Assembly: GCA_023268155.1 (NCBI GenBank)
Contig: JALNKM010000001.1
Coordinates: forward strand, 124,001-188,000
Length of the DNA: 64,000 nt
Origin: Candidatus Geocrenenecus huangii
Lineage (GTDB): Archaea; Thermoproteota; Nitrososphaeria_A; Caldarchaeales; Wolframiiraptoraceae
Reading direction: 5' to 3'
The first letter of the stretch is position 1; every line of letters starts with the position of its first letter. The notes under the pieces were generated by a model. The model saw only the letters and a program-made list of their open reading frames with translations. It was not told the origin of the DNA and did no database searches. Positions 11,618 to 16,921 of this stretch are shown here, in pieces. The position numbers were made by a program, and so were the translations under genes.

Positions 11618-12484
11618 TTACGTCTTTGAATCTACTTTCTCTTTCAGTTTTCTAGCAACAGCTTCAGCTCTTAACAAGATCTCCCCTATTACTTCTCTGA
11701 TCGGTAGACCTACTTCAACCGCTAATATTCTAGCTTCTCTATGGGCTTTGATTATTAGAGTCTGAATAGTCTCTCTAGTTACATACGCTATATCGATCGC
11801 TAGCTTAATAGCAAGGCTGTTCGCCTCGATCACCTCGTTCTTCATCTTCTCCAAGTCTATCTCAAGATCTTTCCCTGAGATTACTACTCCGTCTTCATAA
11901 CCCTTATCGATTGTTATACCTTTCATCACTGCTTTAATGTTTAATCTAGCTAGCAGCGAAGCTAGTAGAGGGGAGATCTCATCGCCCTTCTTAGCAACCA
12001 CAGTATCCTTAGCGATCCATATTTGTCCGCCTTCTATCTTAGTTGGTATCTTTAATTTTCCGAAATCGCTTAGAACTGGACCAGGTGGAAGACCAGTATT
12101 CATCTCAGGTACGACTATATCTATGTCTGCCTTCTCTCCTGCTTTAGCATGCATTAAAATCTTGTTTTTATCAAAGAGTAACTTTAGCTTAAACAAGCTT
12201 ACATCTGAGAAGATAAAACCAGCACTCGATTTCAAATCTTCCACAAGCTTGACCAAATCTTTTTTACCAGTTTTCTCAGCAGCTTTAATGAATAAGGTTT
12301 TCTTGGCAACCCTTATCGTACAGTAGCCTCTAAGCTTCTTCCTGATCTCATGTAGCAGGTTGGCTCTAAGACCAGATAGATTAAAGACGGCGACTACAGG
12401 ATACCTATTGATAAGTTCCGCTAATTCTTCTACTTCTTCAGCCTTCCATTTCTGTACTTTTGAGACGAGAGTCTGCCCGGACAA
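11618..12484 (-). CDS. rpl10: Ribosomal protein L10 (P0), without the acidic C-terminal tail
   Basis: Base of the ribosomal stalk, binding 23S rRNA, L11 and L12 dimers. The rRNA-binding part ('VAVFNLSGLRANLLHEIRKK') and the P0 insertion domain ('NTGLPPGPVLSDFGKLKIPT') are clear. L12-binding helices follow at the C-terminus. The protein stops at 288 residues with 'KEKVDSKT' and lacks the charged linker and L12-like terminal peptide found in many archaeal L10 proteins. Start is TTG at 12484 in a region with its own TATA-like element (about 12540-12548). A 9-base inverted repeat (12486-12494 and 12558-12566) brackets the promoter and leader. Confidence 0.93.
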   Translation of the reverse strand: MSGQTLVSKVQKWKAEEVEELAELINRYPVVAVFNLSGLRANLLHEIRKKLRGYCTIRVAKKTLFIKAAEKTGKKDLVKLVEDLKSSAGFIFSDVSLFKLKLLFDKNKILMHAKAGEKADIDIVVPEMNTGLPPGPVLSDFGKLKIPTKIEGGQIWIAKDTVVAKKGDEISPLLASLLARLNIKAVMKGITIDKGYEDGVVISGKDLEIDLEKMKNEVIEANSLAIKLAIDIAYVTRETIQTLIIKAHREARILAVEVGLPIREVIGEILLRAEAVARKLKEKVDSKT

Positions 12485-12675
12485 GTCCAGCTGAACGCCT
12501 CTCTAAACTCTCCTAACTCACAAACTCTATATCCTCATCTACTTAAAAAACCTAAAATCAGCTGGAGAGAAGGACTTCTATATTCCTTTCTCGATTCTGC
12601 TCTTAAGATATCTACAGGTCACAATCTGCTATCCCATGTAACGTTATTAATGAAAAAGAGTCCATATATGAAGTT

Positions 12676-14244
12676 TTAGAAGATTATCTTTAAGAGATCT
12701 TTTAATTTTACTGTCTTCAGAACATTTACTAGGAATACTAAGAACCCTGTAGCCATCATGAATGCTCCAAGAGAGGCTACCACCATGTAGGGTTCATATA
12801 GTCCCAAACCCATCGGGTAGAGAGTTCTCCTCAACATGCCTAGAGTTCCCGCCAACCCCATGCTCAAACCCATCACTAATCCACCTACACTCCACAGTAT
12901 CAGATGAATGTTACCTAGTCTATCACTGAGATTTTTACCTGTTAGCAGTGGGAAGAGAGCATAGATCGCCGCAAACAATGTTGAGGATAATCCTACGAGT
13001 AGTTGTATGTGCCCATGGATACCTATCACCCATTGAGTATTGTGGAAGAACCTATTTGATGCATAATTTGCTTGTATTATACCTGCTAGACCTCCTACCG
13101 CATAGCCAGTAATCGATACAAGAACAAATTTCAGGGGCATGTTGTACTTTACAGGTCTGGCGAACCATATTGTCGCAAGTACTGCGAACATTGTGAGACC
13201 CATAGTTAAAAGCTCTCCCCAAGTAAATATCTGCCCCTGTATCTGTAAGAAGATTGGCTGAGGCGTATCTGCAAGCATATGGTGATTCCATACGAAGAGA
13301 GAAACGACCAGATCTGCCAATATAACTGTTCTAACAACATTTTCACCGTATAATGTCCTATTTAGTAATAATGGTACTAGGAGATACCATGTGCCAGCAG
13401 TAAAGATGAGCACATTTCCATCCGCTATTAAGTCTAAACCCCACCAGAAGACGTTCTTGTATACTAAGGGGTCAACCATGCTTGTTGATAGAGAGATCGA
13501 GGGGGCAAGGTTCCCTATCGCGAATGCCGCTAATAGTATGCCTACTCCACCGATAACGAACGCATTTAGTGTAGTATCCACGCATCCTCTAAATACGGCG
13601 ACGACGAAAACAGGGTAATTGAATGCTTTAGAAGTATATTGAGGTATACCGGTTATCTTTGCTTTAATCTTGTCTAGGTTGAAGGCTGTTGTGAGAAGTT
13701 CTTTAATGATATACCATGGGCTGGCTGGTCCTCCATCCATCTGCCTAGCTGGAAGGAATATTGTTGCGAACATGTTTCCAAAGAATACGAGTACTCCTCC
13801 TAGGATTAGTCCGACACCTATTCCAAACGCTAGTATAGAGTATAAGTCCCATCCAATGATAGTGTATGCTACTGGTATGGGCCAGTACAATGTGTAGAGC
13901 GGAGCATAATGTGTAAGAAATGTTGTACTCCAAACTGCTATCAGGCCTGTTAGCATCATCCAGAAGCTCAGGTATGCAGCTTTCTTGCTATAGATATCTT
14001 TCTTGAGAATGTAGGGTACGAGGAAGTAGAATGCGCCCATCACTGCCATGTAAGCCCATCCATATACTCCTACAAATGGGTGAGCGGTCATCATGGAGTA
14101 GAAATGCTTTTCATCAAAGAACTCTACAAGAGTATTCATCAACCTAAGCCTCATCAATATTCCTTCTATCCCAGCCAATGCCAAGAAGACTAATGAAACG
14201 ACCACGAATCTGATTGAAATTCTCTTCCTCTCTTCTTCATCCAC
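12676..14244 (-). CDS. Heme-copper reductase subunit I with an altered CuB site (NO-reductase-like or divergent oxidase)
   Basis: Twelve-helix catalytic subunit of the heme-copper superfamily. Directly visible: low-spin heme ligand H55 in 'MTAHPFVGVYGW', CuB pair H321-H322 in 'WNHHMLAD', and heme ligands H410 and H412 in 'GIHGHIQ'. The position of the first CuB His (H in HPEVY of oxidases, HLWVEG of NorB) is Asp 271 ('FWWGLDLIADGN'), fifty residues before the pair, as expected for an aligned site. There is no Tyr following that position, so the oxidase His-Tyr crosslink is absent. 'MGAFYFLVP' resembles NorB. A NOR clade with a carboxylate replacing one CuB His has been proposed from genomics (as I recall, gNOR), and this may be a member. 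It is a pair with subunit II, seven bases upstream. Confidence 0.85.
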   Translation of the reverse strand: MDEEERKRISIRFVVVSLVFLALAGIEGILMRLRLMNTLVEFFDEKHFYSMMTAHPFVGVYGWAYMAVMGAFYFLVPYILKKDIYSKKAAYLSFWMMLTGLIAVWSTTFLTHYAPLYTLYWPIPVAYTIIGWDLYSILAFGIGVGLILGGVLVFFGNMFATIFLPARQMDGGPASPWYIIKELLTTAFNLDKIKAKITGIPQYTSKAFNYPVFVVAVFRGCVDTTLNAFVIGGVGILLAAFAIGNLAPSISLSTSMVDPLVYKNVFWWGLDLIADGNVLIFTAGTWYLLVPLLLNRTLYGENVVRTVILADLVVSLFVWNHHMLADTPQPIFLQIQGQIFTWGELLTMGLTMFAVLATIWFARPVKYNMPLKFVLVSITGYAVGGLAGIIQANYASNRFFHNTQWVIGIHGHIQLLVGLSSTLFAAIYALFPLLTGKNLSDRLGNIHLILWSVGGLVMGLSMGLAGTLGMLRRTLYPMGLGLYEPYMVVASLGAFMMATGFLVFLVNVLKTVKLKDLLKIIF

Positions 14245-14250
14245 CTAACA

Positions 14251-14832
14251 TCATCCCCCGACTACTCTAATCGCGTCCGGGAAATACAGGTAGGGATGCT
14301 TCGGGCCACTGTATTCTGTAGACCTCACGTCATAGTATCCGGGCTCATCGAATATCCATACTATCCGATTCACATATGGATTAGGTACAACCTGCATCTG
14401 GAAAACCATGAGTCCATCCTTCTTGAATACTCCGAAACCATAAACCAGGTCTTGAGATATTACTATGAACTCTACCGGGACTCCGGCTGGAATAGTTATC
14501 GGTTTCTCGGGGAAAACGAATTCATAGTTTCTTACTTCTATCGTAATAGTTATTTTTGGTTCTTCTTTAAGCCATAATGCATATTGTGAAGATGGAAGTA
14601 TCGGAGATAACATGAGTATGTTCCCGACAACAACTATTATGAATAAGAAGATAAGCCATCGCTTTTCTCCTTTCTCCATGCCTTTCTTTTCTGCATGCCC
14701 TTCATTGGCCGGGTTGGGTCTTCCGCCCCCTCTTTTTCGTGTAATGATGTAGAATGCTATTATGAAGCCTATCACAATGGATATCATAACAAAATAAACT
14801 ATCTCTATGAAGACTTGTGGAGCCATATCCAA
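14251..14832 (-). CDS. Heme-copper reductase subunit II-like cupredoxin protein lacking the CuA ligands
   Basis: Two membrane spans (about residues 8-30 and 58-77) are followed by an extracytoplasmic cupredoxin domain. The CuA motif is degraded: the first His is Tyr 131 ('SQDLVYGFGV'), the two Cys are Ser 171 and Ser 175 ('STEYSGPKH') and the Met position is Leu 182; only His 179 remains. The protein therefore cannot hold a normal CuA centre, so electrons must enter subunit I by another route. The overall fold and gene order still identify it as the partner of the subunit I gene that follows on the same strand. Loss of CuA is known in quinol oxidases and some NO reductases. Confidence 0.85.
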   Translation of the reverse strand: MDMAPQVFIEIVYFVMISIVIGFIIAFYIITRKRGGGRPNPANEGHAEKKGMEKGEKRWLIFLFIIVVVGNILMLSPILPSSQYALWLKEEPKITITIEVRNYEFVFPEKPITIPAGVPVEFIVISQDLVYGFGVFKKDGLMVFQMQVVPNPYVNRIVWIFDEPGYYDVRSTEYSGPKHPYLYFPDAIRVVGG

Positions 14833-14897
14833 TAATTAATATTGAATTGATTAAAGATAATCGTGGGATGCAAAATGTTGCACCTATTCTATATTAA

Positions 14898-15554
14898 TTA
14901 CTCGTCGAGAGTCTTTTCCACAACCTTTTTTATAGCATTTCTAATAATCCTAGAGGCTGTAGAAGAATCTACTCCAACCAAGAATGCTAGGTCTTTTAAT
15001 CTCGCACTCCTTTTACTCCCCAGGCAGCCTATCCTCAAAGCTGCTGAGAGAACTTCCCTCTGCCTCTTCGTCAACTCATGATCTTCATAATCTCTGATTG
15101 AGATTGTTTCTACACTTAGATCAGCCTCCTTCAAATCCTCTAAAACCCGCTTACAGAATAGCCTTCCTGGAATTATCATTGTTGTAATAACGCCTAGAGA
15201 TCTTACATAGTATATGGATTCGACGATTACTGGTAGACGAGAGAAGATTCTGCAGGATGTACAGCTTTCAGTACTTATCCATAGGTAATTGTTCGGCAAG
15301 ACCATGTAGGAGCCTGGAATATCTAAGCGTTTACTAATCCTTATCTCTCCATAGAGTTTTAGGAGATGGGTAGAAGACTTCTCGCTTATTCTGACTTTTC
15401 TGAATTGTGCTTCTATAGCCTTATTCTTCAAGAATTCTACAACTTTACAATCGCTGTTTCTTATCAGGATCTTTGCGATCTTTAAACCAAGTTTATGCTT
15501 CAAGCTCCAGCTTACAACTATTCTTACTCTGTTGATAAACTTTCCTCCAATCAA
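14898..15554 (-). CDS. HTH_10 (bacterio-opsin-activator type) transcription regulator with a CxxC motif
   Basis: The C-terminal ~52 residues (161-212: 'LTKRQREVLSAALRIGCLG' onward, ending 'STASRIIRNAIKKVV') are a clear HTH_10 domain as in haloarchaeal Bat and many Thermoproteota regulators. The N-terminal part is a ligand-sensing-type region with 'STESCTSCRIF', placing Cys at 98 and 101. It follows rpl1 by 12 bases on the same strand and precedes the heme-copper genes, so it could control them. The TTG start at 15554 is uncertain because a GGAGG sits just inside the frame. The effector is unknown; a redox or NO signal is only an inference from context. Confidence 0.78.
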   Translation of the reverse strand: MIGGKFINRVRIVVSWSLKHKLGLKIAKILIRNSDCKVVEFLKNKAIEAQFRKVRISEKSSTHLLKLYGEIRISKRLDIPGSYMVLPNNYLWISTESCTSCRIFSRLPVIVESIYYVRSLGVITTMIIPGRLFCKRVLEDLKEADLSVETISIRDYEDHELTKRQREVLSAALRIGCLGSKRSARLKDLAFLVGVDSSTASRIIRNAIKKVVEKTLDE

Positions 15555-15566
15555 TCTACACGACTT

Positions 15567-16223
15567 TTACAATTCTACCTTGATAGGCTTACCCATAGTC
15601 TTCTTGACATATATCGAGTTTACGTTCTTGAAATGCTTCTCCAATTTATCCGAGACCTTAGAAACTATTGTTAAGGCATTCTCTACAAGAGCCTTCGTAT
15701 CCATACTTTCTAAGCCTATTTTACACATGGCTTGAGGGTTCTTCCTCACACTCACCGTTACCGTTCTATAGTACTTCTTAACTAGGTCTGCTATGTTTGA
15801 CCCGGGAGGTATCGGGACGGGTCTTTTGCCCCTGCCTCCAAGAACTGCTCCAAGAGCCTTCGCTGCTAAACCCATTAGAGGAGGATCCACTAGGAAGTAA
15901 TCATATTCTGAAGCAATCTTCTTCGCTAATCTCTTATTCCCAACAAGAGATTCCAGCTCATTTCTCTCTACTACTCTACTTACTTCCTTGAGCTTCTTTG
16001 CTTCGGAAGCTAAAGCGCTTCCAGCTATAACGCATATCTTCCTCCCATCTCCTAGACCGTTCGGAAGCTCTATATCTTCCACGAACCTATTCTCAGGCTT
16101 CTTCAAATCTATCCCCTTAACGTTTATTATCAATTCTATGCTCTGCTCAAATTTCCTAGATACTCCATCATTCTTAGCTTGTTCAATAGCTGTAGCCAGG
16201 CTTGCTTCTAGCGTTCTCAACAT
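15567..16223 (-). CDS. rpl1: Ribosomal protein L1
   Basis: Forms the L1 stalk on 23S rRNA; archaeal L1 also represses its own mRNA in studied species. The family signature around residues 108-135 ('EYDYFLVDPPLMGLAAKALG' then 'RGKRPVPIPPG') is intact, and the length (218) is normal. ATG start at 16223. The 210-base gap to L11 carries a good TATA box (about 16271-16283), so L1 has its own promoter. In most archaea L1 is followed directly by L10; here the HTH_10/heme-copper cassette lies between them. Confidence 0.95.
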   Translation of the reverse strand: MLRTLEASLATAIEQAKNDGVSRKFEQSIELIINVKGIDLKKPENRFVEDIELPNGLGDGRKICVIAGSALASEAKKLKEVSRVVERNELESLVGNKRLAKKIASEYDYFLVDPPLMGLAAKALGAVLGGRGKRPVPIPPGSNIADLVKKYYRTVTVSVRKNPQAMCKIGLESMDTKALVENALTIVSKVSDKLEKHFKNVNSIYVKKTMGKPIKVEL

Positions 16224-16270
16224 AGCTCTTCTCTGATAGTTGACGGATTCAGGTTAATTTAAGAATTTCT

Positions 16271-16283
16271 CATTTATATAAAC
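16271..16283 (-). promoter_or_regulatory. TATA box of rpl1
   Basis: Read on the minus strand, the sequence gtttatataaatg lies about 50 bases before the L1 ATG. This gives a leader of roughly 25 bases. Confidence 0.5.
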
Positions 16284-16432
16284 ATTCCGAGATACTTTTT
16301 CCGAGTGAGCTCCAAATACATAGAAGATAAATAGATCAAATTGACTTAGACTCTCTTTATCTATCCCTTGGTAGCTGGATTTATCTCGGTCTAGTTATCT
16401 GTGATTGGATAAGGTTTTCCATTATTTGAGTT

Positions 16433-16921
16433 TCAAGTTTCTTGTTTTAGTTTGTTATCGTGAGCTCCGGAATCTATCTCTCTTATTACTTCTTTCGGGT
16501 TTTTGCCGTCTACTATGATGCCCATGCTTAGACATGTTCCAAGAACCTGTTTTACAGCTGCTTTCAAGGTCTTAGCACGCATATCATTCATCTTCATCTT
16601 AGCTATCTTTATAACTTGGTCTAAACTGACCTGACCAACATTTTCTCTACCGGCCATTTTAGCACCCTTCTCTACGCCGGCTTCTTTCACGATCAAGGCA
16701 GTAGTTGTAGGTGTACCAACGACGACTTTGAATTCTTTAGTATCGGTATTTACGGTTACTTCTACTGGAACCCTCATTCCTTTAAATTCTGAAGTAACTC
16801 TATTTATCTCTTCAACAATCTGTAAGACGTTTACGCCTAGGGGTCCTAGAGCTGGCCCTATTGGTGGACCAGCATTAGCTTCACCGCCTGGTACTAGGAA
16901 TCGGATTGTTTTCTCAGGCAT
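16433..16921 (-). CDS. rpl11: Ribosomal protein L11
   Basis: Binds the GTPase-associated centre of 23S rRNA with L10. The N-terminal proline-rich loop 'GGEANAGPPIGPALGPLGVN' is diagnostic, and the C-terminal RNA-binding domain contains 'GTCLSMGIIVDGK'. Length 162 is normal for archaea. Its ATG (16921) lies two bases after the nusG stop, so the two are co-translated within secE-nusG-L11. Confidence 0.97.
   Translation of the reverse strand: MPEKTIRFLVPGGEANAGPPIGPALGPLGVNVLQIVEEINRVTSEFKGMRVPVEVTVNTDTKEFKVVVGTPTTTALIVKEAGVEKGAKMAGRENVGQVSLDQVIKIAKMKMNDMRAKTLKAAVKQVLGTCLSMGIIVDGKNPKEVIREIDSGAHDNKLKQET

Follow-up and report, generated by a model that had tools for sequence, protein, structure and literature searches.

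What does a heme-copper protein do when its catalytic subunit carries an aspartate where the first CuB histidine would be expected? The gene that raises this question lies in a 64,000-nucleotide stretch of a Candidatus Geocrenenecus huangii contig (JALNKM010000001.1), referred to here as the window. The first-pass annotation had located the gene at 12676-14244; these coordinates hold, on the minus strand (14244..12676), while a plus-strand reading was ruled out by stop codons throughout. The ORF encodes 522 aa from a GTG start and matches the Pfam COX1 profile with a score of 211.8 bits (cut-off 34.8), so standard annotation would name the product a cytochrome oxidase. We propose instead that it is a gNOR/NorG-like catalytic subunit I and that, together with the adjoining subunit II gene (pair 14832..12676, minus strand), it quite probably encodes a quinol-dependent nitric oxide (NO) reductase of the gNOR type.

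The ORF contains the motifs D271-L-I-A-D275 (codons 13434..13420), H321-H322 followed by E344, and H410-G-H412, all on the minus strand. Alignment and conservation identify His55 (14080..14082) as a ligand of the low-spin heme, His410-x-His412 (13009..13017) as ligands of the high-spin (His410) and low-spin (His412) hemes, and His321-His322 (13279..13284) as the remaining two histidine metal ligands; the heme ligands and the CuB-type pair are thus all kept, as had been claimed. Asp271 (13432..13434) occupies the first CuB histidine position and Asp275 (13420..13422) that of the crosslinked tyrosine, which corresponds to Glu211 of Pseudomonas aeruginosa cNOR and Glu494 of Neisseria meningitidis qNOR. 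Glu344 (13213..13215) aligns with the second active-site glutamate of cNOR and qNOR, a residue absent from oxidases.

The registration of these residues was assessed in multiple alignments of 52 heme-copper proteins, built with MAFFT in L-INS-i, auto and E-INS-i modes. In all three, Asp271 stands opposite a histidine in 28 out of 28 non-gNOR proteins, in agreement with the first-pass annotation, and no other histidine fills the position. The crosslinked tyrosine is indeed missing: the column of Asp275 holds Tyr in 21/21 HxxxY oxidases and Glu in 4/4 cNOR and qNOR proteins. The column of Glu344 holds Glu in the same four proteins, and V, I, A or L in 24/24 oxidases, C-family included. The position given for Asp271 therefore stands, with a caveat on its exact spacing: the distance from Asp271 to His321 is 50, compared with 49 in an archaeal oxidase (L015) and 51 in Sinorhizobium meliloti cNOR. 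Pairwise profile alignments place Asp271 opposite the histidine of cNOR and of one oxidase family, slip by one against the A-type and fall far off register in this loop against the B-type and the C-family. Given this disagreement, we rely for the registration on the multiple alignments, together with the i/i+4 pattern and the FW anchor (FWFFGH / FWWGLD). Published descriptions of gNOR from Sulfurimonas, Sulfurovum and Persephonella report two subunits, a cupredoxin subunit II and an Asp at the active-site tyrosine position (PMC8756737). The latter is compatible only with a registration in which Asp271 takes the place of the first histidine and Asp275 that of the tyrosine.

A genome-wide scan retrieved 396 relatives, and conservation was counted in the top 80. 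Asp271, Asp275 and Glu344 are identical in 81 out of 81 sequences (the query plus these 80), and the histidine ligands in all 80 sequences of the same set that cover them. The D271/D275 motif recurs in 20 further Campylobacterota copies. A sequencing error at codon 271, the other explanation that had been raised, is therefore excluded. The original gNOR papers are said to state that Asp replaces the first CuB histidine; our literature search found no statement of this replacement. The relatives occur in Archaea (Aigarchaeota/Caldarchaeales, Geothermarchaeota and other Thermoproteota) as well as in Chloroflexota, Omnitrophota, Campylobacterota, Bacteroidota, Acidobacteriota and Myxococcota. Those from Sulfurimonas and Sulfurovum are 41-44% identical to the query over nearly the whole length and have Asp271, Asp275 and Glu344 in common with it. 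In Campylobacterota, a clean gap in score, from 737 to 85 bits, separates gNOR from the rest. One Campylobacterota copy (L179) contains an in-frame TAA and may be a pseudogene or an assembly error. Among the matches listed, a plasmid search returned only oxidase-like sequences of 21-29% identity, useful as outgroups.

A phylogeny of NOR and oxidase families recovered the gNOR-type proteins, including those of Sulfurovum (L098) and Sulfurimonas (L107), as a single clade (SH-aLRT 100) that excludes cNOR/qNOR, the C-family and the HxxxY oxidases. On this tree gNOR falls with the oxidases and not with cNOR and qNOR. The tree was computed by a quick method with SH-aLRT support only, and its deeper branching order is uncertain owing to long branches. 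Forcing gNOR and cNOR/qNOR into one clade was 13 log-likelihood units worse (AU p=0.059). A sister relationship with cNOR, to which the shared +4 carboxylate-Gly and Glu344 would point, is thus not the best tree, yet it is only borderline disfavoured. The protein had been suggested to belong to a carboxylate-substituted NO reductase clade or else to be new. The first option holds, on the evidence of the Asp at the tyrosine position, the relatives and the cupredoxin subunit; novelty at the family level was rejected, as the Sulfurimonas and Sulfurovum relatives possess every site residue. Judged from its sequence, subunit I is an archaeal member of the known, biochemically uncharacterised gNOR family and not a new kind of enzyme, gNOR identity being set by genus and by residue match to published descriptions and not by the defining papers' own sequences. 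For gNOR (NorGH), the primary sources are Hemp & Gennis 2008, Sievert 2008 and Murali 2024, as cited in PMC8756737, PMC8906906 and PMC6094997; the family is also listed in Ca. Methylomirabilis (PMC6094997).

The position of gNOR beside the oxidases on the tree, and the fact that A-type oxidases are its closest solved structures in both sequence and fold, would also fit an enzyme that reduces O2, perhaps at trace levels, with quinol as donor and an altered CuB site, in place of an NO reductase. We consider this improbable. The crosslinked tyrosine and the first CuB histidine are gone in every member seen, whereas Glu344, otherwise found only in cNOR and qNOR, is present; the source genome already has a cytochrome bd; and N-oxide genes adjoin the relatives in other phyla.

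Subunit II (14251..14832, minus strand) is a membrane-anchored cupredoxin of 193 aa that matches the CuA/CyoA subunits of solved oxidases and has lost the CuA ligands (YGF; STEYSGPKH); a PHROGs search with it returned nothing. Among aligned homologues, 66 out of 67 have the first CuA histidine replaced by Tyr and both cysteines by Ser or Ala. The loss of these ligands suggests that electrons probably come from a membrane quinol. Of the 66 neighbouring loci with this gene, 65 have it directly upstream of subunit I. The sole complete CuA motif among the 67 subunit II proteins belongs to an archaeal relative (L047, 1713-2288 and 2295-3827), in which a subunit I with the Asp/Asp site is paired with a full-CuA subunit II (THGFG ... 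RCTEYCGFRHSEM). This suggests a CuA-bearing gNOR variant or an ancestral state.

Next to subunit II, at 14898..15554 on the minus strand, is a gene for a transcriptional regulator of 218 aa with a CxxC motif and a Pfam HTH_10 domain. In 16 out of 24 archaeal loci, homologues of this regulator are encoded no more than 6 kb from gNOR, and the regulator likely controls the gNOR operon. The three-gene cassette is set in a run of ribosomal protein genes (window positions 16921..11618) in the order L11, L1, HTH_10, subunit II, subunit I and L10P. It sits between the L1 and L10 genes both here and in another locus (L033), and elsewhere in a third (L034). A scan for sigma-70-type promoters and terminators gave results at or below chance, this model not being applicable to archaea. 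In Campylobacterota and Myxococcota, including loci L084, L086 and L098, conserved genes of about 200, 165 (YcxB-like) and 150 aa lie directly downstream of subunit I, the first of them in 22 loci; their products may be additional subunits or may help in assembly. The annotated neighbouring clusters contained no recognisable genes for copper chaperones or for iron insertion by NorQ/NorD.

In other phyla, the neighbours of gNOR, given as raw counts, comprise NarK (7 loci), the heme-d1 genes NirJ/SUMT (4), Crp/Fnr-type regulators (9) and hemerythrin-DUF438 proteins (6 loci). Within the order, gNOR was detected in 11 of the genomes searched, the source genome included. NosZ is present in 4 of these 11 and in 2 of the 33 gNOR-negative genomes (Fisher p=0.027, on few and related genomes). 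The search of the source genome yielded no match to NosZ or NirK, a nitrite reductase is not evident, matches of Mo-enzymes to NarG are weak, and no second heme-copper oxidase scored above the Pfam cut-off. With no NosZ or NirK and a single heme-copper enzyme beside cytochrome bd, NO detoxification or one-step NO respiration is likelier in this genome than full denitrification. Elsewhere (L002:1366-1896, minus strand), a membrane protein of 176 aa weakly resembles COX1 positions 342-413 (E 2.6e-5).

This lack of recognisable NirK and NosZ, along with the unusual chemistry of the site, could also be read as a sign that another small molecule (hydroxylamine, nitrite, peroxide or a sulfur species) is reduced or sensed, with NO being secondary. 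Such a substrate seems less probable still than O2, given that N-oxide metabolism co-occurs with the family in several phyla and that its assignment as a NOR is published. An inactive, degenerate oxidase paralogue would account for the absence of the usual catalytic residues from subunit I and of CuA from subunit II, but is scarcely credible when the substituted residues are invariant over at least eight phyla, every heme ligand is retained and the two genes stay together as an operon.

To our knowledge, no gNOR has been purified, and for all members of the family the function is a prediction. If the pair is a gNOR-type NO reductase, its probable donor would be a membrane quinol and not a c-type cytochrome or a copper protein. 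Electrons would then presumably pass from the low-spin heme (His55 and His412) to the high-spin heme (His410), opposite which a second metal would be bound, probably by His321, His322 and Asp271. Asp275 may serve as a further metal ligand or as a proton donor, and Glu344 may pass protons in, so that 2 NO would be converted to N2O and water at heme b3 and the non-heme metal. The AlphaFold model of subunit I (pLDDT 85, pTM 0.88) superimposes on oxidases with a TM-score of about 0.8.

The 2-His-1-carboxylate triad is a motif of many non-heme iron enzymes. The replacement of the first histidine by Asp271 would create such a site (Asp271, His321 and His322) opposite the heme, and by analogy with those enzymes iron, one of the non-standard options raised by the first-pass annotation, is favoured over copper as the second metal, an identification to which we give about even chances. 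Were it true, gNOR would have reached NO reduction by a ligand solution unlike that of cNOR and qNOR, with the +4 carboxylate and the Glu344-type glutamate at the same positions. In N. meningitidis qNOR, FeB is held by three histidines and Glu494, and Glu494 and Glu563 have been proposed as proton carriers (PMC7201271). By position, Asp275 corresponds to Glu494 and Glu344 to Glu563, which lies 21 residues after His542 in qNOR, compared with 22 after His322 here. The active site makes it possible to ask whether a metal held by two histidines and a carboxylate can function in a heme-copper protein. On energy conservation by gNOR the papers disagree; the enzyme is described as quinone-oxidizing and non-electrogenic in PMC8906906.

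Because Pfam scores gNOR as a cytochrome c oxidase, a capacity for NO reduction can go unnoticed and aerobic respiration can be inferred too readily. Caldarchaeales metagenome-assembled genomes have been reported to contain nirK and nosZ but to lack an NO reductase, with abiotic reduction of NO by iron put forward instead (PMC10547907). In one of them, Ca. Pelearchaeum maunauluense, we found both gNOR genes (L041, contig JANVYQ010000009.1), a pair that is therefore a candidate for the enzymatic NO-reduction step. gNOR would thereby supply the denitrification step reported missing in relatives of the source archaeon. Its presence in the 11 genomes of the order suggests that hot-spring archaea may make N2O themselves.

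Compared with known systems, the pair is closest to the gNOR of Sulfurimonas, Sulfurovum, Persephonella and Methylomirabilis, with the same Asp at the tyrosine position, two subunits and a cupredoxin subunit II; it differs from the bacterial gNORs in its archaeal host, the HTH_10 regulator in the operon and the location of the cassette within a ribosomal-protein operon. Like cNOR and qNOR, it has a carboxylate four residues after the first ligand, with Gly next in most, and a Glu some 21-22 residues past the histidine pair. Unlike them, its first ligand is Asp and not His, Asp stands in for the Glu of their FeB site, its second subunit is a cupredoxin where theirs is a cytochrome c, and on the best tree the clade is separate. 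With the A- and B-type oxidases, including the CuA-less cytochrome bo3 and aa3-600, it shares the fold and the heme ligands, and the subunit II of these two quinol oxidases is likewise a cupredoxin without CuA. Compared with the A- and B-type enzymes, however, it lacks the first CuB histidine and the tyrosine, possesses Glu344 and aligns a Thr with the K-channel Lys; relative to A-, B- and C-type O2 reductases as a whole, Asp271 and Asp275 replace a histidine of the three-His CuB site and the crosslinked tyrosine. Finally, eNOR, sNOR and bNOR/CuANOR are, like gNOR, oxidase-like NO reductases with a cupredoxin subunit II, and the residue at the tyrosine position sets them apart: Gln in eNOR, Asn in sNOR/CuANOR and Asp here (PMC8756737 Table A4).
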